The notes under the pieces are model-generated. The model searched no databases, was not told the origin of the DNA, and saw only the letters and a list, made by a program, of their open reading frames with translations. Below are positions 94 to 22,279 of a stretch of 25,343 nt of DNA, in pieces. The stretch spans positions 1 to 25,343 of the IMG/VR virus record IMGVR_UViG_3300007960_000165, one strand, 5' to 3'. This DNA comes from a virus. The position numbers and the translations under genes were made by a program. Every line of letters starts with the position of its first letter. The stretch's first letter is position 1.

Positions 94-495
94 GTGAGCG
101 CGATCAACAACATCACCCTCGTGGGCCGTCTGGTCCGACCCCCTGAGAGAAAGGGGGACTGGGGCGCGACCTTCACGCTTGCCGTCAACGCCCGAGAGAA
201 GGTGAACGGCGAGTGGCAGAAGGTCGGCCACTTCTTCGACTGCGTTGCCTTCGGCAAGCGTGCCGAGGCCCTCTGTCAGTACGCCGGCCAAGGCGACCTC
301 ATCTCCGTCTCCGGGTCCCTCCGCCAGCGCAAGTGGGAACAGAACGGCGAACGCCGTTCAGCCGTCTCCATCGCTGTTGATGACTGGGAGACCGTCGCGC
401 GGAAGGAGCGCGATGGCGCGGCCGGTGGCGGCCAAACCCCGGCTCCGTCCAACCAAGGTCGCGGCGACTACTCGCCGCAGGATGTTCCGTTCTGA
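94..495 (+). CDS. ssb: Single-stranded DNA-binding protein (bacterial OB-fold type)
   Basis: This 133-residue protein binds single-stranded DNA during replication and recombination. The N-terminus (INNITLVGRLVRPPE) is the classic first strand of bacterial-type SSB OB folds. It is followed by the conserved HFFDCVAFGKRAE segment near residues 46-58 and the strand with GDLISVSGSLRQRKWE near 67-82. A Gly/Gln/Pro-rich disordered linker follows from about residue 107, and the protein ends in the acidic-hydrophobic tip DVPF. That tip is the element through which SSBs recruit repair and replication partners. The GTG start abuts the upstream stop and its stop overlaps the next ATG (TGATG). T7 itself uses the unrelated gp2.5, so this phage's replication module differs from the T7 type. 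The family call is secure. Confidence 0.95.
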   Translation: MSAINNITLVGRLVRPPERKGDWGATFTLAVNAREKVNGEWQKVGHFFDCVAFGKRAEALCQYAGQGDLISVSGSLRQRKWEQNGERRSAVSIAVDDWETVARKERDGAAGGGQTPAPSNQGRGDYSPQDVPF

Positions 496-692
496 TGACC
501 CACTCCCCTCAGCTTCTCACCTTGCAGGAGGTCGCTGACCTCTGCCGGGTCCATGTCCAGACGATCCGGGCCGCCGTCAAGGCCGGCGAGATCCAGGTTG
601 TCCAGGCCCCCGGGACTCGCGGCGCGAAGGGCCGCCGGGTCCCCTACTCCGCCATGATCGAATGGCTCAACGCTCAGACCCCCAAGACCTGA
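495..692 (+). CDS. Excisionase-like small HTH protein
   Basis: This 65-residue protein has one winged-helix/HTH unit of the MerR-like excisionase (HTH_17) type. The pattern LLTLQEVADLCRVHVQTIRA spans residues 7-26, then comes a short wing with GRRVPYSAMIEWL near 47-59. The usual family signature is a helix-turn-helix followed by an Arg-rich wing and an 'AL..WL' closing helix, and this is what is seen. The ATG overlaps the SSB stop (TGATG), so translation is coupled. Because a tyrosine integrase and attP are within 2 kb, the best guess is a recombination directionality factor that bends attachment-site DNA and promotes excision. It sits on the strand opposite to the integrase, unlike the co-transcribed xis-int of lambda. 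A transcriptional regulator of the same fold is the alternative. Confidence 0.7.
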   Translation: MTHSPQLLTLQEVADLCRVHVQTIRAAVKAGEIQVVQAPGTRGAKGRRVPYSAMIEWLNAQTPKT

Positions 693-991: not shown

Positions 992-2005
992 TCAACTAGC
1001 CCCCTCGACCACCTCCCGCACATCCTCGGCGGTGAGGTGGGTGTAGTGCCGGGTCATCGCCTCGGAGTGGTGGCCGACGAGGAAACTGGCCGCCTGGGCA
1101 TGCCCCGTGCGCGCGAGTCGCGTCACGAAGGCGTGGCGGAGGCTGTGGAGGCTGACCCCGGCCCACTCGGGGTTCTCGCGCTTCCACCTCGCCCACGCGA
1201 TGCGGAGGCCTGGGCCGAACGGGCCGCCATGCTGGTCCTCTCGCCGGCGGAGGATCTCGACCACCCTCGACGGGATCGGCCTCTCGGACACGCCCCCCTT
1301 GTTCTTGGGGGACCGGATCGTCCAGGTGGCCCGGTCGAGGTCGATGTCGGCCCACTCGAGGCGGATCAGCTCGACTGAGCGCAGCCCGGTGGCCCACAGG
1401 ACCTCGAGGGCCGCCCCGAGGCCTGCGAGGCTGCGCCGCTTTCGCCGGGACGGCGCAGAAGAGGCCTGGCCCTCGACCGCCGTCAGGAGCCGCGAGAATG
1501 CGTCTGAGGGCATGGCCTCGCCGCGCCGCTTCTCTTCCTTCGGCGACGGCACGGCGAGGGCCGGGTTCATCCTGATCTCGCCCTCGCGGTGAAGCTCCCC
1601 GAAGATCATCCTGATGTGCCGGAGCCACTTCGCGCGCGTCGGGAGGCTGAGTCCTTCGTCGCGGAGCTTGTCCAGCGCGCGGCGGATCTCGCGGGGGCGG
1701 ACCTCGCCGGCCTGTCGGCGGCCGAGGGCGCGGACCAGGCGGTCGACCGTGAGCCGGTACTCGGCGAAGGTGTGTCGGCTGACCGGGCGGAGTCCGTCCG
1801 GCTCCCTCTCGCGGAGCCATCGGGCTGCGGCTTCGGAGACGGTGAGGCTCTGGGTCCAGCCTTGGTCCTTCTGGCGGATGAACTCGCGGAGGGCGGCCTC
1901 GGCTTCGGCGCGCTTCTTCGTCCTGGTCGAGCGGCGGTGGGACCGGCCAGCCTCCTGCCAGGTGATGTAGAAGACCTGGTTGTCGGGGTGTCGGCGGAGC
2001 TTCAT
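992..2005 (-). CDS. int: Tyrosine recombinase, phage integrase
   Basis: This 337-residue integrase should recombine attP with the host tRNA gene. The N-terminal ~45 residues (MKLRRHPDNQVFYITWQEAG onward, rich in Arg/Lys) resemble an arm-type DNA-binding domain. A SAM-like core-binding domain follows at about 50-145 and the catalytic domain at 165-337. The catalytic set is visible: Arg209 in TGLRSVEL, a Lys in the KNKGGVSERPIP hairpin (234-236), His287 and Arg290 in HSLRHAF, His312 in LVGHH, and the nucleophile Tyr321 in TRHYTHL. I prefer the ATG at 2005; an in-frame TTG at 2035 would add ten residues and run through the direct repeat at 2016-2040. It is transcribed leftward, away from attP and against the early operon. 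The promoter must lie within attP, so Int binding to the repeat could repress its own gene. Confidence 0.96.
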   Translation of the reverse strand: MKLRRHPDNQVFYITWQEAGRSHRRSTRTKKRAEAEAALREFIRQKDQGWTQSLTVSEAAARWLREREPDGLRPVSRHTFAEYRLTVDRLVRALGRRQAGEVRPREIRRALDKLRDEGLSLPTRAKWLRHIRMIFGELHREGEIRMNPALAVPSPKEEKRRGEAMPSDAFSRLLTAVEGQASSAPSRRKRRSLAGLGAALEVLWATGLRSVELIRLEWADIDLDRATWTIRSPKNKGGVSERPIPSRVVEILRRREDQHGGPFGPGLRIAWARWKRENPEWAGVSLHSLRHAFVTRLARTGHAQAASFLVGHHSEAMTRHYTHLTAEDVREVVEGAS

Positions 2006-2015
2006 CCTGCGCAGA

Positions 2016-2040
2016 CTAGCGCAAAACTGACGCAAAATCC
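2016..2040 (+). repeat. Putative integrase arm site, left copy
   Basis: This copy matches 2301-2325 at 20 of 25 positions, in the same orientation. Inside it, GCGCAAAA (2019-2026) is followed 11 nt later by ACGCAAAA (2030-2037), so two subsites lie one helical turn apart on the same DNA face. Such paired short direct repeats flanking a core are typical arm-type sites for the integrase N-terminal domain. It lies just upstream of the preferred int ATG, where binding could block int transcription or translation. Confidence 0.6.
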
Positions 2041-2091
2041 AAAATGCACCGAATGGGGAATCCTAGCCCGATGCTCCTGAGAAAGAAGTAA

Positions 2092-2119
2092 CCCCCGCAG
2101 CCACGGGGACTTGCGGGGG
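2092..2119 (-). terminator. Terminator hairpin beyond the tRNA fragment
   Basis: CCCCCGCA at 2092-2099 pairs perfectly with TGCGGGGG at 2112-2119 across a 12-nt loop. Read on the minus strand, the hairpin lies 7 nt after the CCA end of the tRNA fragment and is followed by a pyrimidine-rich tail (GTTACTTCTTTCTC). This looks like the natural terminator of a host tRNA gene carried along in attP. After integration it would restore both the 3' half and the terminator of the tRNA gene. In the phage it lies between attP and int on int's own strand, so int transcription starting upstream of it would have to read through. Confidence 0.65.
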
Positions 2120-2126
2120 CCGCTTC

Positions 2127-2170
2127 TGGTAGCGGAGGAGGGACTCGAACCCACGACTCGCGGATTATGA
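2127..2170 (-). other. tRNA 3'-half fragment (CAU anticodon), attP core identity segment
   Basis: On the minus strand the segment reads from the anticodon loop (TCATAA, anticodon CAT at 2169-2167) through the 3' anticodon stem (TCCGC), variable loop, T arm with TTCGAGT and acceptor strand CTCCGCTA to an encoded CCA end. No matching acceptor 5' strand (AGCGGAG) or D arm occurs upstream, so this is not a functional tRNA gene. The anticodon indicates tRNA-Met or the lysidine-modified tRNA-Ile. The T stem contains one T-T mismatch (second pair), so the host copy may differ there. Confidence 0.82.
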
Positions 2171-2261
2171 TTCCAGAACAGAGCGAATCGTAAGCGCATT
2201 GCCGAAAAGGGGATATGACCGCAACACCTTCCTCTTTCGACGCTTGCGGCTAAACCAGGGG

Positions 2262-2281
2262 GAGGCATTCTGAGGCATTCT
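2262..2281 (+). repeat. 10-nt tandem repeat in the right arm of attP
   Basis: GAGGCATTCT occurs twice in immediate succession (2262-2271 and 2272-2281), and GAG of a third unit follows. The period is close to one helical turn. Its position between the tRNA core and the right 25-nt repeat makes it a candidate site for the excisionase or a bending protein. The link to a protein is inference. Confidence 0.5.
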
Positions 2282-2300
2282 GAGCGGCCGAATGGGCCAG

Positions 2301-2325
2301 CTAGCGCAAAATCAGCGCAAGATCC
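2301..2325 (+). repeat. Putative integrase arm site, right copy
   Basis: This is the second copy of the 25-nt direct repeat, 285 nt after the first and on the other side of the tRNA core. GCGCAAAA (2304-2311) and GCGCAAGA (2315-2322) repeat the same 11-nt subsite spacing. The first eleven bases, CTAGCGCAAAA, are identical in both copies. See the left copy at 2016-2040 for the interpretation. Confidence 0.6.
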
Positions 2326-2382: not shown

Positions 2383-2586
2383 GTGAAGAACGACCACTTC
2401 GCTCCCGACAAGGTCCCGGTGGTTCCGGAGGCCCTCGTCGCCTGGCTCGAGCGCACCTTCCCCCCGCGCTGCCTCGAGCGAGACGAGGAGCCGCGCCATG
2501 CCCACCGGTACGCCGGCAAGGTTGAGCTGGTCGCCTTTCTTCGGCGCACCGCCAAGGCCCAGGTCGAGGGAGGCATTACGCGATGA
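2383..2586 (+). CDS. Small unknown protein opening the late gene block
   Basis: This 67-residue hydrophilic protein has the GTG at 2383 as its likely start. No clear Shine-Dalgarno sequence precedes it. The sequence looks like a folded helical domain: VPEALVAWLERTFPPRC near 12-28, then HAHRYAGKVELVAFLRR near 39-55. Third-position GC is high throughout, which supports coding. Its stop overlaps the ATG of the next gene by 4 nt (ATGA), so it belongs to the rightward structural operon. The promoter for this block should lie between attP and this gene, or within attP, but I could not identify it. No function can be assigned. The position before the portal gene suggests a morphogenesis or late-expression role, by context only. 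Confidence 0.65.
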   Translation: MKNDHFAPDKVPVVPEALVAWLERTFPPRCLERDEEPRHAHRYAGKVELVAFLRRTAKAQVEGGITR

Positions 2587-11438: not shown

Positions 11439-14279
11439 ATGGCCGAGAACTTCCGCGCCAAGTCTTCCGCCCCCCGCGCGTCGGTCCCGGACTTCCAGCC
11501 GTTCGTTCCGATCCGGCCGGTGAGCTGGGGCGCGCTGCGCCAGCACCAGGCCACCGTCGACAACGGGCCGGCTCAGCAGCTCGCTCGCCTGGCCGAGTCG
11601 GTCGGCAACCTCAGCCCGACCCTCGCGCGCTACCTCCGAGTCCAGCGAGGCGAGGAGTTCGAGGCGAACAGAGAGGCCGTGGACGAGCGGATCCAGAACC
11701 TCACCGACGAGGACTGGGAGCTGATCCGAAGCGGCCAGGCCGAGGAAGTCGCCCGGGGCTACACCAGCGGCGGCTCGTCCGAGGCTCTCTACTGGAACGC
11801 CTCCCTCGGCCGGGAAGCAGCGAACCGGGTCATCACCTCGGCTGGTGCGGAAAAGCTCCTCCACGAGCTGACCACCGCCGACATGTATTCCACCTCCCTC
11901 GAGGAGAAGGAGGCCCGGCTCGAGGAGTACTGGTCCGCCGGCGGCGAGGGCCTGACCCCGATCCAGCGGCGGTTCTACAACGACACCGTCGACGCGCGCC
12001 GCGCGGAGTTCCGGCAGCGGCTCGTCCGCGACTCGAACGAGGCCAACCGCCAAGCGGCCCTCACCAGGCTCGAGTCCGACTATACCGAGGCCCTCCGGCG
12101 CGGCGAGAACCTCGGGGAGATCGAGGCCGAGCTGATGGCGGCCGGGGTGTCCCCGGATCACCTCCGCAAGCTCCACGCTATCGCCACGACCCAGGCTTAC
12201 CAGCACATGGTCACCGAGCTTGTCTCCAGCGGAGCGGACTGGCCGCAAATCCAGGAGCAGCTCGCCGAGTGGGAGGCGACCGTGGCGGAGCGCGTCCTCT
12301 CCAGCGGCGAGAAGTGGTCGACCCGAGGGGACATCCAGAAGGCCCTCCATGATGGAAGGCTCGCGGCGTATCAGAGCTGGGCCGCCGCTGACGGGATTGC
12401 TCGGGTAAACGAGCAGCGCGCCGAAAGGGTGTTCAAGGAAACCCGCAGCTCGGTTCTCGCGCGTCTCCGCACCTATCTGACGCAGGACCCGGCCCGGAGC
12501 GACCAGGACCTCATGGAGTTCGCTCGCCAGGTCGCCGTAGAAGAGGCCCTCGCCTTTGACGATTCCACCTCCGAAGAGGTCTACGCCCAATCCCTCAGTC
12601 AAGGCGACCTCAGCAGCCTTGTCTGGACCGCGAGGGACCTAACCAGCCAGAACACGGCCTTGGCGATCAGGGGTCTCCTCGAGCGGGTCGACCGTGGCGA
12701 GGTGGACTGGGACACGCTCCAGGTTTACATGGAGGTGTTCCCCCAGGCGGCGACCGCGCTCGAACAGGCGTGGGCGCGCCTGCCCTCGAATGTTGCGCTC
12801 GGGATCAACTGGGGCGAGAAGATCGACGGGATCGTCAGGCCGAACCAGCAGCGGCTAGCCAGCAACGACAGCCTCAGCTCCGAGTGGACCATCTTCCGGG
12901 AAGAGGCGGTCGACCGTCTGCGCGAAGCCTTCATTGCCAAGTACGGAGAGCTGCTCGAGAACGGGGAGTCGACCGGGCCGGCCCGGGCGAGTGCGCTGGA
13001 GTGGATCAGCGGGACGGAGGCAAGGAAGCTGGTCGCGGGAGACCAGGACTTGACCATGTTCTCGAAGGTCCCCGGAGTCGATGGGGCTGAGTCGCGCGCG
13101 CTGGTGAATGCAGCGACGGCTGCCCTCCGCGAGCTGGAAGCCGCCTTCTGGGCAGATGAAGGGACCGGGACCGACCCGCTCAACCCCTTCAATCTCGGCG
13201 ATGCGGCTATGGCCACCCTCGACGCGGCAGTAAAGGTCGAGGTCGAAGACTGGCTCGAAGGATACGACGGCGAGGTCGGGGACAGGGGGGAAGCCCTGGT
13301 CGAGGCCGTTGGCCAGGTGGGCGAAGGAAGCCTGAGCGAGAAGATCCGGGCCAGATTCCTGGCGACTTACCGAGAGGGCAAAGGCCGCCGCGCCGGGGAG
13401 GCCCGTCCCACCGGAGAAGCTCAGATCGGGCTTCGGGACGCGGTCGAAGCGGAAGAGCTGGGCGACCCGAAGGCGTGGAACCAGGTTCGCCAAATGCGCG
13501 CGGCGGACGCAAGCGAGAGCTACGCCGAACTCCACAAAATGACCTCCCGGCTTTTGGGTTGGTCGCTGTTCGATGCCCAGGTCAAGACCCAAAACGCCAA
13601 GGGAGAAGAAGCCGTCCTCGAGGGCGACGACGATGTCGTGGATCTCGTTGATGGCCGCTTCGTGGCAGAAAAGAGCGCGCCTTCGACCGAGGATCTCAGG
13701 TTCGCTGCGGCCGTGAACGCGGAGTTGCTGGACTTGGCCCTCAGCACGACGGTCGCTGTTCCTGTTGGAAAGGTAGATGACTTCGGCGACTTCGGCGACT
13801 TCAAATACAAAGGGAAATACGCCCCTCAATCGCCAGAAGGCTATACCGGTCTGGCCTTGCCGATGCTCGGCACGGTCCTGACCTACGGGCTTCCGCTCGT
13901 GGATGAAAAGACGCTTCGCCAGCGCAACCTGATGGCGTGGGCGGAGGGCGACTACGCGGTGGACCACGGCGCGCGGGGGGCCAAGGTGCATTACTGGGTT
14001 CCTTCCAAAGCGGAGTACGCCGAGTTCGCCCCGGACAAGCTGTTCCTCTTCCCCACCCCCGGCGACCTCCCCGAGGCCGATGACGAGGTGTGGGGCCACA
14101 TCCTCCGGGTTTACGAGTCGACGGCCGAGCGAACCGGCATCGACATCCGCGCGATGTGGCGCGCAGACCAGGGTGATCTTGTCGACACCGACCCGGCGGA
14201 AGACCCGAGCCGGGAAGACCTGTTGGACTACCTCTACGACCTCCAGGCCGACCTGGCCGACGCTCACCGCCTGAACTGA
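11439..14279 (+). CDS. Internal virion protein C-like (T7 gp15 position)
   Basis: This 946-residue, largely alpha-helical protein occupies the slot of T7 gp15 (747), an ejected core protein that forms the periplasmic tube for DNA entry. The N-terminus is Pro-rich and extended. Helical, Glu/Ala/Arg-rich sequence follows through most of the chain (for example TRLESDYTEALRRGENLGEIEAELMAAGVSPDHLRKLHAIA near 208-248). No catalytic motif is seen. In the last quarter (about 13520-13830) the DNA is less GC-rich than its surroundings and encodes an FGDFGDF repeat, so this part may be a recent insertion or a fast-evolving segment. The stop overlaps the start of the giant gene by one base. The call rests on gene order and helical composition. 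Confidence 0.78.
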   Translation: MAENFRAKSSAPRASVPDFQPFVPIRPVSWGALRQHQATVDNGPAQQLARLAESVGNLSPTLARYLRVQRGEEFEANREAVDERIQNLTDEDWELIRSGQAEEVARGYTSGGSSEALYWNASLGREAANRVITSAGAEKLLHELTTADMYSTSLEEKEARLEEYWSAGGEGLTPIQRRFYNDTVDARRAEFRQRLVRDSNEANRQAALTRLESDYTEALRRGENLGEIEAELMAAGVSPDHLRKLHAIATTQAYQHMVTELVSSGADWPQIQEQLAEWEATVAERVLSSGEKWSTRGDIQKALHDGRLAAYQSWAAADGIARVNEQRAERVFKETRSSVLARLRTYLTQDPARSDQDLMEFARQVAVEEALAFDDSTSEEVYAQSLSQGDLSSLVWTARDLTSQNTALAIRGLLERVDRGEVDWDTLQVYMEVFPQAATALEQAWARLPSNVALGINWGEKIDGIVRPNQQRLASNDSLSSEWTIFREEAVDRLREAFIAKYGELLENGESTGPARASALEWISGTEARKLVAGDQDLTMFSKVPGVDGAESRALVNAATAALRELEAAFWADEGTGTDPLNPFNLGDAAMATLDAAVKVEVEDWLEGYDGEVGDRGEALVEAVGQVGEGSLSEKIRARFLATYREGKGRRAGEARPTGEAQIGLRDAVEAEELGDPKAWNQVRQMRAADASESYAELHKMTSRLLGWSLFDAQVKTQNAKGEEAVLEGDDDVVDLVDGRFVAEKSAPSTEDLRFAAAVNAELLDLALSTTVAVPVGKVDDFGDFGDFKYKGKYAPQSPEGYTGLALPMLGTVLTYGLPLVDEKTLRQRNLMAWAEGDYAVDHGARGAKVHYWVPSKAEYAEFAPDKLFLFPTPGDLPEADDEVWGHILRVYESTAERTGIDIRAMWRADQGDLVDTDPAEDPSREDLLDYLYDLQADLADAHRLN

Positions 14280-17200
14280 TGATCAACCCGTACGGCTACC
14301 GTTTCAGCGACAATGTCACGAAGGGCGAGGAGAACTGGGCCTTCCAAATGGCTGCGGCTCCGTTCCGCGCCGCCGAGGGGCTGTTCTCGTCGGTCTATAA
14401 CCTGGCGGACTTCGTCAGCTTCGATGCTCTCCCCGACTACGGGGAGCGGAAGCTCGGGACCTCGGAGTTCTGGGCCGCCTCGCTCCTCGAGGGAGGCCTT
14501 CAGTTCCTCGTCCCCTTTGGGACCCTCACGAAGGGGGCGAAGGCCCTCACCTCTCTCAGCCGCTTCGGCGGACTTGCGACCCGTTACCGCAGAATGAGCA
14601 AGGTGGGCCAATGGGCCGTGCGCGACCTGGCCGGCGGCGCGCTGGTGGACATGGTGGCCTTCGAGGGGAACGAGGGTCGACTCGCGGATCTCCTGGTCCA
14701 GTTCCCCGAGCTTCAGAATCCGCTGACGGAGTACCTGGCCAGCGACGAGGATGACGGATTCCTCGAGGCCCGGCTCAAGAACGCCATCGAGGGCGGGATT
14801 CTTGGCTCGGGGGTGGACGGCCTCATGGCCGCGTTCTCTGGGGTCCGGCGCAAGATCCGGGGGTCCGGCCGCAGCCGCGTTGCGGCGAACGGGATGGAGG
14901 ATGTGCTGAGTGTCGCCGAGCGGCAGGCATTGAACTCCTCGACGGCCAAGTTCTTCCGGGAGGTGTATGGCTACGACCACGACGAGGTCCTTGCGACGGA
15001 GGCGGTGATTGACGCGCTCGGCCTCGACCGCTCCCGGATCATCCTGGACGAGGACGGCAGGCTGTTCCTCGACCACGCGGCGAACTCGCCGGAGATCCTG
15101 GCCAAGCTCGAGCGAGGCGAGATCAACGGGTACACGATTCGCGGCCAGGAGCTGGGAACGGTCATCATCGGCGGCTTCAAGAACGCCGACGCAAGCACCG
15201 GGCTTCACGAGATCCTCCACGCCACGCGGTCGATGCTGTTCGACATGCGGATCGACTCGTCCCTGCGGACCGGCGTAACGGACGAGATGATCCATGCGGC
15301 GGCCAAGTGGGCCGGCGCAGTCTGGGACGAGGCGACCGGGACCTACAAGTGGGGCCGCGAGGCAGAGGAGAAGTTTGCTCGCGCCGGCGAGCTGTACTTC
15401 CGCGACGGCAAGGCTCCCTCCCCTGAGCTGGAGTCGCTGTTCGAGAAGTTCACCGAGTTCCTGACGAAGATCTACCGCAAGGTCTCCGGCTCCGCCATTG
15501 ATGTCGACCTCTCGCCTGAGATGAAGGACATCTTCGACCGTCTGGTCCAGCGCGGGAAGGCCGTCCCCGACGAGGATCTCGTCGCGCGCCGACTTGAGGC
15601 GGTGGGCCGGCCGGACGAGTCGGCCGGCGAGGTCCTCCTCCAGCTCCAGCGGAGCTTCCTCGAGCCGATCTCCGACGAGCTTCGGGACGAGGCCCCCTAC
15701 AAGCTCCGGGCATCGGCGAACGAGGACACGATCCACCTGGCTCACGAGGAGCTGGACGCTATCGAGGCAGAGCGAGGCGAGATCACCTCTGGGGAGCAGT
15801 TCCACCGATTCCTCACCAAGCTGTGGAAGGGAAAGGCCTTCCTCGGGGAGGACGGGGAGATGATGCCGCGCCAAGGCCAGTTCATCGGCCGCCTTCTCGA
15901 TGACCCGGCGTACACCAAGGAGTTCTTCGGCAAAGCCAGCGACGAACAGATCGAGGCCGCACAGCATGGCCTGGAGACTGCCGCCGCTTTGGGCGAACTG
16001 TACGCGAAGGGCGATCCCGGGGCGGACACCACTTTGATGACGGCGTTCTGGGCGATCCTCTCTCGCTCCGCTGCTGTCGCGCCACAGGAGACTGCGTTCG
16101 TCGATTCGATCTATCGGGCTAACCGGCTGATGAGCCGGATCCTCGACCACGCCTCGAACCGAAAGGCCATCGACAACCTCGACGATGTCTTGACGGGCGA
16201 GATGCAATGGACTGCGGACATCCTGATGGGCAAGGGTCTCCTCGCGGAGGCGATGGAGCGGATCGCCTCAGGGAAAGACTTCGACGATGCGTTCTACTTG
16301 AAGTGGGACGCGGAGATGGACCCGAGTCGGACCAAGCGGGCCGGGCGGTTTGAGCGCGAGGCGGATCTGTCCGAGGACGGCGGCCTCGTCGCCCAGGTGA
16401 AGGAGATCATCTTCTCCGGGGCGAAGGTCCCGGATGATCTCCGCCGGCGGATCCAGGCGATCCGCCCCGACGATGAGGTCTTGAGCCAGCCCCGCTACAC
16501 CCACCCGGGTGTGTCGGTGGTATCGAATGTGAACTCGGCTGGTCTCGAGCTGTTCCGTGAGCTGTTCCGCCCCACGAAGGACGGGCGGACCAAGATCCAG
16601 GTCCTCCACGACATGCTCGTCGAGGGGAAGAGCGGGAGGGAGATCCGTCGCTGGTGGCACGGCGCGGTCCAGGGGGCCGGCATGGACAACAAGATCCTCA
16701 GCTTCATGCTCCTCGTTCTCGGAAAGGAGGATGTGATGGTCTGGGATCGCGTCCGGTACAGCATGGAGTTCGCCCTGGATTCGGACGAGAATGTCTACTC
16801 GAGCCTGACCGACGCGGCCTTCGGGAAACTTGAGAAGGAGGTCGGTTCAGAAGCAGCGCGGCTCCACGGTCGAGACGGCTTCGCCACCACGGGCAACGGC
16901 CTTTACGGGGTGGCGTTCAGCGAGGCAAGTGAGTCGGCAGTTCGCCACATCCTCCGGACGCAGAGGCCCATGCCGGAGGGGCTGAACCACATCGGCGGGT
17001 TCCATTGGCTCTCCTGGGTGATCCATTCCGGCCAGGTCACCAGCCACGCCAGCGTCGAGCGCATCCTCGACTATGCCCGGGCCACGCCCGAGCAGCGAGG
17101 GATGCTCCAGGAGATGTTCGACGGCACTCTCGTGACCGAGCAGCGGTACGAGCAGAAGACCTTTGGTCATGCCTTCGGCTACATCGACGGGCAGCCGGCG

Positions 17201-20200
17201 GTGGTGATCGCTGACCCTGTCACCGGAAGCCCGATCCGCGTCGAGGTCGATGACTGGGACACGATCAAGACGATCCTCCAGGGAGCGTCCGGCTACAAGG
17301 AGGCTCTCGCCGGGGAGGGCATGACCCCATCGGTGACTCGCGCGCTGACCGGCGCGGAGTTCGGGTGGGTCGAACATAAGAAGAAGAGCGCGAACTGGGC
17401 GTGGTACAATGACCCCGCCTTCGCGGACAACAAGCACCATGGCGAACTCCTCCGACGATTCTATTCCCACTTCGGCGCAGCTTTCCAAGGAGGCGAAGGC
17501 TCACTTGCGGAAGCTGCTCGAAATGCAGCTCCCCTTCGACCCGAGCAACGGGCAGCCTCCGCCGCAGCAGTCGAAACCCAAGCCCAGGCGGTCCTACTCG
17601 GAAGAGCTGGAGGGGTGGGCGAAGCTTTCGCCGGGCCGACTGCTCGGTCTGGGGGTGGTGGTCTCGCCACGCTCGGACAGCTCGGAGCCTCCGGCAAGCG
17701 AGTAGTCAAGGGATTCGTCGACGCGCTTCTCCCCGATGGGGCGAAGTGGCAGGACTACATCGAGACGGTCCACGCCGTCGACGGTGCTAGGGCGACGGGC
17801 TACAAGCACATCGGGATTCATGTCGCAGACCCGAGTGGCTCCGGCTCTGGATTCGCGGAGCTGAAGCCGGCCGGCGAGAGCATCTTCCGCGAGGCCGCCG
17901 AGCGCGCGCGCGCGGCGGACCCGGAGAACATCTCCGGAGCGATTCCGGACGATCTCCCCGAGGGGAGCCGCATGCTCATCTCCCCCACGGGAGAAGGGGG
18001 CCTCCTCATCAACGGGGACGAGGTCCTCGCTGTGTTCGATATCCCCCGCCACGGCAGCACGGTGCAGCTTGCCGACCTGGCCATCAGCAACGGGATCAAC
18101 AAGGTCACCGTGGAGGGGCCGTTGGCCACGGGCTTCTCGGTGGTCGGCATGCGGCCCATCTCTGTGGACGGCAACCGGGTGACCCTGGTCCGCGACCCGG
18201 AGTTCGGCGTGGTGGTCACTCGTGACAACGCGGCCGACTTCGTCCGGGACGGCGACAATCTCCTCCTCCAGGAGTCCGCGAAGCCGGCGATCCGCGAGGA
18301 TCTGTGGGACCTGGGCAAGATCAACGAGAAGCAGGAGATCGGCTCCGCCAAGACCAGCCGCAGCCAGATCCCTGGCGGGATGCGCGTCGCCATCGAGAAG
18401 GGCTACCTCAAGGCCGGGATGCGGAATGTCGACATCGGCGGTGGCAAGTTCGACAAGGGGACCCAGTTCCTCCGCGAGAGCGGCGTGGACTCTGAGGTCT
18501 TTGACCCCTTTACTCGTGATGCCGGCCACAATCGGCGAGTGCGGGACAGCAGGGCTGGAGGCCAGTCGGATTCCGCGACGGTCCTCAATGTCCTGAATGT
18601 GATCCGCGAGCCGGAGGCCCGTGCGATGGTCCTCGAGCGCGCGCTCGACGCTCTGCGGCCTGGCGGCCGGCTCGTGGTCCAGGTCTACGAGGGAGCGGGC
18701 GACGGAGCCGGCAAGGCCACCCGCGACGGCTGGCAGGAGAACCGCAAGCTCTCGTCCTACCTTGACGAGGTGCGCCAGGTCTTCCCCAACGCCGAGCGGG
18801 AGGGGGGCCTGATCGTGGCAACGAAGGATGTTCCCGGGACCAGCCGGGTCGAGGCCGCTCGGGCCGAGCTGGAAGCCGCCAAGGCCCACCAGCTTGAGGT
18901 CCTCAAAGCGACTCGAGACCGCAGCCCCTACGACAATGTCCCCTCCAGGGCATCGGCGCAGGAGCGCGTCTATGCTGCCCAGCAGCGCGTCTACGAGGCA
19001 CAGCAGGCCGCCTACCGGGAGGGGGACCTGCTCCTCCAGGAGGCGGACACGACGAACGCCCGGCGTGGCGACCGGGACGAGTTCCCGGACGATCCGGTGA
19101 ACCTCGACCGGATCCACTCGAACGAGGACATTGCCCGGGGCCTTGCGAGGGCCTTCGACGAGGTCGAGATGCCGGATCTCGGGGAGATGAGCCTCGAGGA
19201 GGCCGCCGAGGATGCCCTGGCGGAGGCCCGTGGCCTCATGGAGGAGATGGGCGAGGGGTCGGCAGATGACCACCAGCTCATCAAGGCCCTCCTCGGCACG
19301 ACCCACCAGGCCATCGCCACTTTTAGCCGCAAGACCCAGGCTGCTCGGGCGTTCCTGGCCAGGGTGTCTGGCCAGTACGCCGACTACCTCACGGGCAAGG
19401 TGGATCTCGATACGGGCGAGTGGCTCGGCACGGACGAGGAGCTGGCCGAGGCCCTCCGCCGCCGCGCCATCCTCATCAACTCGGCCGTCGAGGTGCGGCG
19501 CGTCCAGCGCGCCATGGCCCAAGCCCTGGGTGCGAACCGCATCCGGTTCTCGGGCCGCTTCCAGGAGGGCGTGGCGATCCCGCGTCCCCCGATTGACCCG
19601 TCTGCCGGCGAGGCGGCCGCTGGGGCTGCTGCGCGCGGCCGTCAGGCCTCTCCCCGGGCTGGTGGGCCGTTCCCCCGGGAAGCGGCCGACGCTGCTCAGG
19701 CGGCGCGAGAGGCGGCTTCCAGCGGCGGTGGCGGGGCGGCCGGCAGCACGGCCGGCGGCGCGACCGGCGGCCGAGGCCTGTCCACCCCGACCGGCCGGGT
19801 CCCGAACCCCACCCTCCCGGGCGGCGGCGGCGGCGGTGGCCAGGGGCAGGCGGCGGCTGGCGGCGGCGGCGGCCGGCGGCCGGCGGCCCCGGTCGAAGAG
19901 GCCGAGGGCGGCCGCAGGAAGAAGCGTCGACAGAAGAAGCAGCGCGGCGGCCCGAAGAAGACCGCGCTCCCGGGGACCTCGGCCACGCCGGGTGGAGAGG
20001 TCGCCCCGTCCTCGGCGGCCAAGCCCACGCCCTCGCGGGACGGCGCGGCCAAGAAGGTCCCGATCCCGAAGCCGGCAAGCGACAGCAAGGCCCTCGAGGC
20101 CCTGATCGACAAGCACGGCGGCCGGCGGAAGGTCATCAAGATGCTCTCGCAGGACCTGGTGTATCGGGAAGCGAACCCCGGCGCGTCCGTCGTGGTCAAG

Positions 20201-22279
20201 CCCAGGAACTTCTGGTCCATGCTCCCCGAGTACTGGATGAACAACCTCCTGAGCGGCCCGATCACCTTCGCCGTCAACCTCGCCAGCAACTCCATTCGGA
20301 TGCTGGCCGACCCGATTGAGCGCGGCCTGGGCAACCTCCTCACCGGCCAAGCCGGCCAGGCCCGGCGGGAGCTTTCCGAGCTGGTGGCGATGGCCCAGGA
20401 GCTGCGCGAGGCGGTCAAGCTCTCGGCGGTTGCCCTGAAGGAGGACACGAGCAAGCTCGTCCCGGGCGGCGGCGGCGGCCTGGACGAGTTCGGCCGCTCC
20501 ACCCGGGCCATCTCGGCGGATGGCCAGGGTGTTGGGCGCGAAACCGTGACCGGCAAGGCCCTCGACTGGCTCGGCAAGTTCGTCAACATCCCGAGCCGGC
20601 TGCTGATGGGCAGCGACGAGTTCTATAAGCAATGGACCTACCGGAGCCGGATGCTGCGGCGGACCCACGAGATCGCGTTCTCTCGCTACACGGACGCGAC
20701 CGAGCGCGCCGAGTTCATCCACCGGATGATGCGCGCCTCGGGGGCCGAGGGCCAGGTCTACACGAGGGACGCGCTGCGCCGAGAGGCCAGCAAGCAAGCA
20801 GCCCAGGCCGGCCTGACGGGGAACGAGGCTGACAAGTTCATCCTCCAGTACATGGACCAGCATTGGGACTCCGAGGTCGGGCGCGAAGCGGCGAAAGCCC
20901 TCCAGTCCGCGCGCGAGTCCACCTTCACGCAGGACCTCGAGAAGACGGCCAGCGACCGGGGCATTCTCAGCATGATGACCGGCGGCCGGGACGAGAACGG
21001 CGCGCGCGTGGCCGGCCCCGGCCTGCGCGGCACGATCAACCTGGCCTCGGCCACCCTCGCCGATGCGGTGGGCAAGGTCCCGGCTCTCCGGTTCATCTTC
21101 CCCTTCATCCGCACCCCCACGAACATCATGCAGTACTTCCTCGACCGCTCGGTCGGGGTGGTGAGCGAGGCCGCGCGGCTGCTCGTGGACGGCGAACTGC
21201 GGCGCGCCTCGACCAAGGCAGACCTGGCGGATCTGGCCGGCCGTGCTTCGACCGGCGCGGTCCTGTTCGGCTCGGCCGTCATGCTGGCGATGCAGAAGGA
21301 TGACCGCGACCTCCCGATGCTGACGGGGGCCGGCCCGGACAACCCGGACGAGCGGAAGATGTGGCAGGCCAGCGGGTGGCAGCCCTACTCGATTCGAGTC
21401 GGGGACCGCTACATCAGCTACCGCCGCCTCGACCCCTCGGCCCTCTTCTTCGGGATGGTCGCCGACCTGGTCCAGAACAAGGCTCACGCCGAGATGCTGA
21501 ACCAGCAGCCCGAGTACGGCAAGGCGGTCTTCGTTGCCCTGGTGAACAACCTGGCCAGCAAGAGCTACCTGACGGGCGCGCTCAACCTCGCCCGTCTGTT
21601 CAACTCGCCGGCGCAGGAGTTCCAGTATGTCTACAACGGGTGGGTCACGGGCTTCGCCCCCCACTCGAGCTTCGTCCACCAGGCCCTCAACCCGGCCCTC
21701 AAGGGCGACGAGGTCTTCCACGAGCTGCGGACGGCGGCCGATGCGTTCGCCAGCCGGAGCTTCTGGAAGGACCCGGCCGGCAACCCGACCAAGTACGACT
21801 TCCTCGGCCGGCCCGTGAAGCGGGACGCTGGCATCGGGCCTGACTGGGGCAGTCCTCTCCGCACGACCGAGGCCTCGGACGATGCGCTGTTCTCGGAGCT
21901 GATCGCTTCGGGCGCGTCCTTCGGGCCGCCGCGCGAAACGGACGGGAATGTCGACCTCACCTCCTTCCGTGGTCCGGACGGCGTACAGACCGCGTATGAC
22001 CGATGGCTCCAGCTCCATGGCGAGGTCAAGCTGGGCAAGCGCGGCCTCGAGGCGGCCCTGCGAAGGGTGACGCAAAGCAAGGGGTACAAGCAGATGAGTC
22101 CGGTGGGCTTCGACCAGGTGGACTCGCCCCGAGTCTCGCTTCTCCGCCGGGTTTACTCGGCCTACCGCACGAAGGCGAAGATCGAGATGCTCAAGGAGTT
22201 CCCCGAGTTGCGGAAGGCCCTGGACAAGCAGCGTCGTGATGCCCTCCTCCTGGCGCGCGGCGAGAACCGAAACCGATGA
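14279..22279 (+). CDS. Giant multidomain internal virion protein (gp16 position, polyvalent type)
   Basis: At 2,666 residues this is almost twice T7 gp16 (1,318), which is ejected with the DNA. Visible parts are as follows. The N-terminal ~120 residues are helical. A zinc-metalloprotease motif HEILH lies at 310-314, with a downstream EEKFARAGELYF (363-374) that could supply the third ligand. A region at about 740-825 is Lys/Asp-rich and weakly resembles helix-hairpin-helix glycosylases. A beta/alpha region at about 1175-1325 may be GNAT-like. A SAM-methyltransferase-like domain spans about 1365-1518 (VDIGGGKFDKG at 1384-1394, LRPGGRLVV near 1460). A Gly/Ala/Lys linker covers about 1777-1937. 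The C-terminal domain (1941-2666) contains FPFIRTPTNIMQYF. No lytic transglycosylase motif is seen. Residues 1054-1143 overlap a second ORF. The organisation fits phage 'polyvalent' proteins; individual domain roles are inferred. Confidence 0.88.
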   Translation: MINPYGYRFSDNVTKGEENWAFQMAAAPFRAAEGLFSSVYNLADFVSFDALPDYGERKLGTSEFWAASLLEGGLQFLVPFGTLTKGAKALTSLSRFGGLATRYRRMSKVGQWAVRDLAGGALVDMVAFEGNEGRLADLLVQFPELQNPLTEYLASDEDDGFLEARLKNAIEGGILGSGVDGLMAAFSGVRRKIRGSGRSRVAANGMEDVLSVAERQALNSSTAKFFREVYGYDHDEVLATEAVIDALGLDRSRIILDEDGRLFLDHAANSPEILAKLERGEINGYTIRGQELGTVIIGGFKNADASTGLHEILHATRSMLFDMRIDSSLRTGVTDEMIHAAAKWAGAVWDEATGTYKWGREAEEKFARAGELYFRDGKAPSPELESLFEKFTEFLTKIYRKVSGSAIDVDLSPEMKDIFDRLVQRGKAVPDEDLVARRLEAVGRPDESAGEVLLQLQRSFLEPISDELRDEAPYKLRASANEDTIHLAHEELDAIEAERGEITSGEQFHRFLTKLWKGKAFLGEDGEMMPRQGQFIGRLLDDPAYTKEFFGKASDEQIEAAQHGLETAAALGELYAKGDPGADTTLMTAFWAILSRSAAVAPQETAFVDSIYRANRLMSRILDHASNRKAIDNLDDVLTGEMQWTADILMGKGLLAEAMERIASGKDFDDAFYLKWDAEMDPSRTKRAGRFEREADLSEDGGLVAQVKEIIFSGAKVPDDLRRRIQAIRPDDEVLSQPRYTHPGVSVVSNVNSAGLELFRELFRPTKDGRTKIQVLHDMLVEGKSGREIRRWWHGAVQGAGMDNKILSFMLLVLGKEDVMVWDRVRYSMEFALDSDENVYSSLTDAAFGKLEKEVGSEAARLHGRDGFATTGNGLYGVAFSEASESAVRHILRTQRPMPEGLNHIGGFHWLSWVIHSGQVTSHASVERILDYARATPEQRGMLQEMFDGTLVTEQRYEQKTFGHAFGYIDGQPAVVIADPVTGSPIRVEVDDWDTIKTILQGASGYKEALAGEGMTPSVTRALTGAEFGWVEHKKKSANWAWYNDPAFADNKHHGELLRRFYSHFGAAFQGGEGSLAEAARNAAPLRPEQRAASAAAVETQAQAVLLGRAGGVGEAFAGPTARSGGGGLATLGQLGASGKRVVKGFVDALLPDGAKWQDYIETVHAVDGARATGYKHIGIHVADPSGSGSGFAELKPAGESIFREAAERARAADPENISGAIPDDLPEGSRMLISPTGEGGLLINGDEVLAVFDIPRHGSTVQLADLAISNGINKVTVEGPLATGFSVVGMRPISVDGNRVTLVRDPEFGVVVTRDNAADFVRDGDNLLLQESAKPAIREDLWDLGKINEKQEIGSAKTSRSQIPGGMRVAIEKGYLKAGMRNVDIGGGKFDKGTQFLRESGVDSEVFDPFTRDAGHNRRVRDSRAGGQSDSATVLNVLNVIREPEARAMVLERALDALRPGGRLVVQVYEGAGDGAGKATRDGWQENRKLSSYLDEVRQVFPNAEREGGLIVATKDVPGTSRVEAARAELEAAKAHQLEVLKATRDRSPYDNVPSRASAQERVYAAQQRVYEAQQAAYREGDLLLQEADTTNARRGDRDEFPDDPVNLDRIHSNEDIARGLARAFDEVEMPDLGEMSLEEAAEDALAEARGLMEEMGEGSADDHQLIKALLGTTHQAIATFSRKTQAARAFLARVSGQYADYLTGKVDLDTGEWLGTDEELAEALRRRAILINSAVEVRRVQRAMAQALGANRIRFSGRFQEGVAIPRPPIDPSAGEAAAGAAARGRQASPRAGGPFPREAADAAQAAREAASSGGGGAAGSTAGGATGGRGLSTPTGRVPNPTLPGGGGGGGQGQAAAGGGGGRRPAAPVEEAEGGRRKKRRQKKQRGGPKKTALPGTSATPGGEVAPSSAAKPTPSRDGAAKKVPIPKPASDSKALEALIDKHGGRRKVIKMLSQDLVYREANPGASVVVKPRNFWSMLPEYWMNNLLSGPITFAVNLASNSIRMLADPIERGLGNLLTGQAGQARRELSELVAMAQELREAVKLSAVALKEDTSKLVPGGGGGLDEFGRSTRAISADGQGVGRETVTGKALDWLGKFVNIPSRLLMGSDEFYKQWTYRSRMLRRTHEIAFSRYTDATERAEFIHRMMRASGAEGQVYTRDALRREASKQAAQAGLTGNEADKFILQYMDQHWDSEVGREAAKALQSARESTFTQDLEKTASDRGILSMMTGGRDENGARVAGPGLRGTINLASATLADAVGKVPALRFIFPFIRTPTNIMQYFLDRSVGVVSEAARLLVDGELRRASTKADLADLAGRASTGAVLFGSAVMLAMQKDDRDLPMLTGAGPDNPDERKMWQASGWQPYSIRVGDRYISYRRLDPSALFFGMVADLVQNKAHAEMLNQQPEYGKAVFVALVNNLASKSYLTGALNLARLFNSPAQEFQYVYNGWVTGFAPHSSFVHQALNPALKGDEVFHELRTAADAFASRSFWKDPAGNPTKYDFLGRPVKRDAGIGPDWGSPLRTTEASDDALFSELIASGASFGPPRETDGNVDLTSFRGPDGVQTAYDRWLQLHGEVKLGKRGLEAALRRVTQSKGYKQMSPVGFDQVDSPRVSLLRRVYSAYRTKAKIEMLKEFPELRKALDKQRRDALLLARGENRNR
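17439..17705 (+). CDS. Candidate overprinted 88-codon ORF inside the giant gene
   Basis: In the +1 frame relative to the giant gene, an ORF runs from ATG 17439 (MANSSDDSIPTSAQ) to TAG 17703-17705. Counting codons by hand, about 82% end in G or C, which is the genomic pattern. The giant gene's own frame drops to roughly 50% over the same stretch and returns to normal on both sides. The product looks natural. It has a helix, SKEAKAHLRKLLEMQLPFD (16-34), a Pro/Lys-rich segment and SYSEELEGWAKLSPGRLLG (53-71). The same DNA in the giant frame gives Ala/Gly/Arg-rich, linker-like sequence. No Shine-Dalgarno is evident before the ATG, so expression is uncertain. No function is known. Confidence 0.5.
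   Translation: MANSSDDSIPTSAQLSKEAKAHLRKLLEMQLPFDPSNGQPPPQQSKPKPRRSYSEELEGWAKLSPGRLLGLGVVVSPRSDSSEPPASE
19819..19890 (+). repeat. GGC-rich low-complexity tract encoding a polyglycine linker
   Basis: Runs of GGC/CGG units encode two poly-Gly stretches separated by Gln/Ala in the giant virion protein. Just after the tract, a basic cluster (RRKKRRQKKQ) follows near residue 1880. The tract is part of a roughly 160-residue disordered linker between the methyltransferase-containing half and the ejection-protein-like C-terminus. Slipped-strand length variation would be expected here. Confidence 0.6.

Follow-up and report, generated by a model that had tools for sequence, protein, structure and literature searches.

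What is the role of the short stretch at positions 2016–2325, which lies between the start of an integrase gene and a rightward gene at 2383? It belongs to the left part of the window, as we call the whole stretch of DNA that was analysed, a linear IMG/VR fragment of 25.3 kb with genes for a T7-type portal, capsid and nozzle (PF12236, PF21703 and PF25675) and a T7-type terminase (PF22530). At its left end the gene order is ssb, encoding a single-strand binding protein (94–495, plus strand; PF00436), a gene for a 65-aa HTH protein, a small gene, and a minus-strand gene for a 337-aa tyrosine integrase. From the sequence we propose, with a probability of roughly 0.88, that 2016–2325 is the attP of the adjacent integrase, which would recombine with a tRNA-Met(CAT) gene of the host, inside its anticodon loop, in such a way that the tRNA is kept. 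The phage almost certainly carries the back half of the tRNA in order to insert itself without breaking the host tRNA gene; this reuse of a tRNA 3′ end is a well-known trick, seen here in a little-known phage group.

The core of the putative site is the 3′ part of a tRNA on the minus strand. The minus strand reads from CAT to CCA over 43 nucleotides (2169–2127); once GGAAT, the 5′ strand of the anticodon stem, is included, the match is 48 nucleotides long (2174–2127) and identical at 47 of 48 positions to an alphaproteobacterial elongator tRNA-Met(CAT) gene (genome G309, locus L126). The existence of a minus-strand tRNA half running from the anticodon loop to CCA, as put forward in the original prediction, was thus confirmed against a real tRNA-Met gene; the claimed lack of a 5′ half was confirmed as well, since ARAGORN found no complete tRNA in the window. 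The resemblance goes beyond generic tRNA conservation, given the 47/48 identity and an unusual T50·T64 mismatch that the phage half and the G309 tRNA-Met have in common, and a pattern made of T-arm, acceptor stem and CCA is expected only 0.045 times per shuffled window. When the phage 3′ half was placed in silico behind the 5′ half from G309, ARAGORN recognised a 77-nucleotide tRNA-Met(cat); neither attP alone nor the opposite junction was recognised as a tRNA. The crossover is presumed to fall within the 7-nucleotide anticodon loop (2171–2165), because identity to the matching tRNA begins 3 nucleotides ahead of the loop.

At least 118 stretches of the sequence collection contained the 3′ portion of elongator tRNA-Met(CAT) in a scan that allowed four free positions. 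Among the matches listed, these came mostly from Alphaproteobacteria, as judged by their titles; 110 of 119 had one and the same sequence, with 2 differences from the phage in 43 positions, and the phage sequence itself was not among the 119. The 385 alphaproteobacterial genomes contained no exact host copy and a single-difference match in one genome, G309, and no match with one mismatch or fewer was present in further sets of 17, 200 and 317 genomes. Likewise, BLAST searches of 44 genomes of a small phylum gave no exact copy, the matches listed reaching 94–96%, the exact 28-nucleotide tRNA end did not occur in viral contigs, and Rfam yielded sub-threshold chance matches only. The host group is probably alphaproteobacterial, because it is a tRNA-Met of that class that matches so closely. 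As a separate observation, the T50·T64 mismatch of the T-stem is also present in the tRNA-Met genes L126, L030, L033 and L047, the first from a small alphaproteobacterial order and the other three from rumen genomes, L030 belonging to another small phylum.

The gene next to this core (992–2005, minus strand; alternative TTG start at 2035) encodes an intact tyrosine integrase, which matched PF00589 (1.3e-16), SAM_1 (2e-5) and phrog_1 (5e-54), and in which both PF00589 and the core-binding domain PF02899 scored over their cut-offs. Residues R209, H287 and R290 were invariant in an alignment of 14 integrases, and the catalytic tyrosine was located by inspection in the motif RHYTH at 319–323. In the structural model (mean pLDDT 83.6), residues 2–48, before the core-binding domain, form three strands followed by one helix, and this predicted β3-α block reached pLDDT values of 73–93. 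A β3-α fold is the known arrangement of arm-binding domains. The Pfam family Arm-DNA-bind_4 matched below its cut-off (E 0.13), and Foldseek matches to solved structures, which included Tn1549 Int, lambda Int and Xer proteins, covered mostly residues 51–323. Core match and adjacent integrase together agree with the proposal that the locus is an attP at which a tyrosine integrase makes use of the 3′ half of tRNA-Met(CAT). Relatives of the integrase were tried as a guide to the host and discarded, none of them being close in 376 alphaproteobacterial genomes (E ≤ 1e-20) and those of phages being too distant (less than 30% identity in the best 20 of 45 phage records). The 65-aa HTH protein (495–692, plus strand), whose start overlaps the ssb stop and whose gene lies 1.3 kb from the att stretch, matched HTH_17 (PF12728, 3e-10), phrog_66 and phrog_2907 as well as TIGR01764 ‘excise’ with 29.6 bits (cut-off, 28.8), which suggests that it is the excisionase.

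The same locus was compared in related phages. Relatives of the terminase at 57–60% identity were present in three contigs, G002 (L158/L159), G396 (L165/L166) and G395 (L167/L168), and a terminase scan with four sequences revealed no sister phages beyond these three. Gene 2383, a small conserved gene (2383–2586, plus strand), has homologues of 44–49% identity in all of them, and the gap between ssb and this homologue amounts to 217–334 nucleotides in the sisters vs 1.9 kb in the window. The block with the HTH gene, int and attP, whose left and right edges are ssb and gene 2383, is therefore extra in the window and missing at the same place in the three sisters. Since sisters without the block keep ssb and gene 2383 adjacent, the site is best read as an attP inside phage DNA and not as the end of a prophage. 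In the three sister contigs none of 36 local tRNAs found a match, and a tRNA-half pattern without the CCA requirement gave chance-like hits, none of them ending in CCA. The sisters do possess a different, short tyrosine recombinase of about 260–267 aa behind the terminase (G002:33148–33948, G395:12657–13436 and G396:5265–6059), in which no arm domain was recognised; the window ends too early to reach that place.

This shorter recombinase located elsewhere in the sisters, and the fact that genome searches turned up neither the host nor an integrated copy of this phage or its attL/attR junctions, would suit a dead remnant, that is, a tRNA part and a hairpin left over from an old integration or from tRNA capture and having no role in recombination. 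Indeed, tRNA sequences upstream of int have been proposed as leftovers in LUZ100 (PMC10134795). We nevertheless consider a remnant highly improbable here, because the integrase is intact with its catalytic residues, an excisionase-like gene is present, paired repeats stand on both sides of the core, and the tRNA part is conserved at 47 of 48 positions while shared phage proteins are at most 60% identical to those of the sisters.

The repeats in question are two 25-nucleotide direct repeats, identical at 20 of 25 positions, which flank the core at 2016–2040 and 2301–2325 (plus strand) about 140 and 145 nucleotides from the anticodon loop. Both their presence and their construction from two subsites each had been predicted and were found as described, the 9-nucleotide motif RRCGCAARA occurring at 2018–2026 and 2029–2037 in the first repeat and at 2303–2311 and 2314–2322 in the second, with one further copy in the whole 25 kb on both strands. 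An equally good 25-nucleotide direct repeat appeared in 4 of 300 shuffles of 1800–2600 and in 1 of 500 shuffles of 2006–2382 (about 0.2–1.3%), so that, judged by sequence alone, the repeat is unlikely yet possible by chance. The paired motif was not detected in viral contigs, a set that may not include the window's own record. We regard the 25-nucleotide repeats as plausible arm sites of Int. A different function, in which the core would still be a working attP and the repeats would be repressor operators for the divergent int and gene-2383 units, could draw on the location of the repeats, each of which shortly precedes the gene that comes first in its direction (11–35 nucleotides upstream of the int ATG and 58 nucleotides from gene 2383), on the HTH protein encoded nearby and on the only moderate excess of the repeats over chance. 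However, the copies are direct, so that their orientation towards one gene is the reverse of that towards the other, each of them consists of two short subsites that are not palindromic, and they are roughly equidistant from the anticodon loop; moreover, in mycobacteriophage Omega the tRNA core is likewise flanked by paired direct repeats of 10 bp (PMC3706429). Operators are for these reasons an unlikely explanation, and we keep to arm sites in what follows.

Between the core and arm repeat 2, a tandem of two 10-nucleotide GAGGCATTCT units (2262–2281, plus strand), perfect copies of which occur nowhere else in the window, is a candidate excisionase site. No IHF-like sites with up to 2 mismatches were found in 1981–2400, and no promoter consensus in 1900–2600, where the consensus used may not be that of the host. 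We also noticed a perfect 8-bp inverted pair, GCGCAGAC/GTCTGCGC, at 2009–2016 and 2354–2361, just outside both arm repeats, which encloses the whole att region and may be due to chance.

Past the CCA, the minus strand contains a terminator-like hairpin (2084–2126), identified by folding and by a terminator scan, that consists of an inner stem and an extended imperfect one. The inner stem, CCCCCGCA/TGCGGGGG (2119–2112/2099–2092), has 8 perfect base pairs with a loop of 12 nucleotides and begins 7 nucleotides past the CCA, exactly as anticipated. The folding z-score of 2080–2190 was −3.1, a simple scan placed a terminator-like site at the hairpin on the minus strand, and the T tract behind it is imperfect (TTACTTCTTTCT). 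Perfect stems with 7 or more base pairs, no further than 10 nucleotides from the CCA, followed 14 of 110 complete tRNA-Met genes, the number kept after leaving out duplicates, cut rows and IMG/VR tRNA loci, vs 4 of 550 shuffled downstream stretches; they mostly begin 5–6 nucleotides past the CCA, near the 7 nucleotides of the phage. The position of the phage hairpin is by this comparison host-like. We quote the stricter stem rule because a looser terminator rule gave a weak contrast (36/98 vs 65/294 shuffles) in a count that left out matches with less than 60 nucleotides downstream, N runs and duplicate flanks and retained, from genomes, 98 full copies and 9 halves.

We infer that the hairpin acts as a terminator of the tRNA. 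Another fold, such as an int mRNA leader or an accessory structure in the recombination complex, would also be compatible with the imperfect T tract and with a stem so nearly symmetrical that it could work on either strand, but the excess of stems close to the CCA of tRNA-Met genes over shuffled stretches speaks against it, and we hold such a role to be rather doubtful. As a terminator, the hairpin would finish the tRNA and shield int, because the phage half ends a working tRNA gene and int comes next on the same strand. Its sequence is another matter, as none of the 110 complete tRNA-Met genes had a convincingly similar downstream sequence. Accordingly, the idea that integration recreates both the tRNA 3′ half and the host terminator is upheld for the tRNA, by the in-silico hybrid, but not for the host terminator, and the genome searches returned a full tRNA-Met gene that was close and not exact. 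One locus, L129, was considered as a host copy of the hairpin on account of its likeness by BLAST, and was rejected when its score was equalled by 11 of 200 shuffles. Independently, a motif near TCAATGACTTAG recurs in numerous tRNA genes as well as att halves, a few nucleotides past their CCA (L126, L054, L175, L182, L184, L200, L138 and L141); it is absent from the window.

Integration would then proceed as follows. Int would contact the paired subsites of the two arms through its N-terminal domain and the core through its catalytic part, and strand exchange would occur in the anticodon loop of the host tRNA-Met(CAT) gene (attB). Fusion of the phage 3′ half onto the 5′ half of the host gene would give a complete tRNA-Met, followed by the phage hairpin and then by int in the same direction, and the displaced host 3′ half would come to lie at the opposite prophage end. 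Transcription of the tRNA would end at the hairpin, ahead of int. The HTH protein, made together with ssb, would serve as excisionase, and Int would probably repress its own gene via arm repeat 1, since this repeat sits at the int start.

Use of the same tRNA by other elements was also analysed. With three free positions, the tRNA-Met 3′ part was found in 38 IMG/VR contigs, and of the 39 matches in them 13 represented the complete tRNA, 18 were halves that lacked the 5′ part and 8 were cut near a contig end. In L200, a complete copy and a half are 9.2 kb apart, a layout that fits an integrated element, as expected. Within 700 nucleotides, 30 integrase/tRNA-Met pairs were counted (L049 being entered twice, as two pieces of one broken frame), with the tRNA followed by int on the same strand in 17, int followed by the tRNA in 5, a convergent arrangement in 7 and a divergent one in 1; by its coordinates the window would have the order of the 17. 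tRNA-Met(CAT) is thus a common target in Alphaproteobacteria. Three of the tRNA-Met halves, L016, L096 and L115, have an upstream TACGTAGACGCGTCTAC and a TTCCGTTGGAAT junction in common, which suggests an element family using one site. The sublocations within tRNAs are reportedly the topic of Williams 2002. In a published count, the order tRNA then int accounted for 736 of 1273 integrase-tRNA pairs, and genes so arranged are predicted to be self-repressed, as shown in the tested cases (PMC2951348). The KplE1 intS gene (‘STI’) represents this order, with the tRNA and int on one strand and the int promoter inside the att region (PMC2951348); it uses argW of E. coli, unlike the window with its tRNA-Met, where autoregulation is putative.

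Overall, the att site follows a known published plan, in which its core and integrase are well supported and its arms, terminator and regulation are candidate parts. The closest layout is that reported for Omega, a cluster J mycobacteriophage, with a 44-bp common core from the anticodon loop of tRNA-Leu, a pair of direct-repeat arm sites of about 10 bp on each side and additional arm-like sites where int starts, at its start codon; an HTH protein is its suggested directionality factor, and integration was shown with a plasmid (PMC3706429). Omega is, however, a siphovirus of Mycobacterium that uses tRNA-Leu and has its attP downstream of int (PMC3706429), whereas that of the window is upstream and has a hairpin after the CCA.

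The expectation that temperate T7-like phages with such detail would be few was not borne out, as 11 of 13 integrase-bearing T7-like cyanophage genomes are reported to have an attP that corresponds to a tRNA gene (PMC8776855). P-SSP7 and S-TIP37 resemble the window in their T7-like virion, their integrase and an attP that is part of a host tRNA gene, but differ in using tRNA-Leu and in having attP downstream of int; their integration needs both int and attP, and the report describes it without stable lysogens, which is a warning for the window too (PMC8776855). LUZ100, Pasto and T7-like pelagiphages are also temperate or temperate-looking, with an early-region integrase and a tRNA gene or part of one nearby, but Pasto and LUZ100 have a T7-type RNA polymerase and use tRNA-Leu (PMC10134795). 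The Roseobacter phage CRP-3, a podovirus of an alphaproteobacterium as the window's phage appears to be, was found by sequencing and PCR to integrate at the 3′ end of the same target, tRNA-Met(CAT) (PMC6918029). Our scan of CRP-3 (MK613345) detected a tRNA 3′ half and, by eye, a hairpin-like stretch downstream, but this is an HMO-2011-type phage whose site lies about 1.7 kb from int. In our reading, the CRP-3 half resembles an initiator tRNA-fMet more than an elongator tRNA-Met. Because the att site follows a published pattern, the general gain is modest; it consists in a concrete attP for an uncultured phage, which points through tRNA-Met to an alphaproteobacterial host, and in the indication that a phage with a T7-type virion can hold a complete integration cassette mid-genome.

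More unusual than the att site appears to be the phage group itself, since in the sisters virion genes of T7 type stand together with replication genes of DnaB/RecET type. The designation as a T7-like phage is hence appropriate for the virion genes but not beyond them. In a scan covering part of each contig's genes, O-like or DnaD-like initiators and a DnaB helicase were seen in all three sisters, a RecE-type exonuclease in G002 and G395, and RecT plus a RuvC-like protein in G002 and G396. The T7-type RNA polymerase of Pasto had no match (E ≤ 0.01) in the three sister contigs or in the window, a fragment whose own early region is missing, and the comparison of the sisters with the T7-type RNA and DNA polymerases of Pasto gave no match either. 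A tentative scenario, which we advance as a possibility, is that of a small lineage with a T7-type virion and DnaB/RecET-type replication that swapped or added integration systems: the sisters would have the short recombinase behind the terminase, and the window's lineage would have gained, between ssb and the portal region, a complete excisionase-integrase-attP cassette equipped with a tRNA terminator of its own, and might possess both recombinases at once. Elsewhere in the window, a reading frame of 2666 aa at 14279–22279 probably encodes a giant internal virion protein, residues 1376–1482 of which form a methyltransferase-like stretch with a sub-threshold score.
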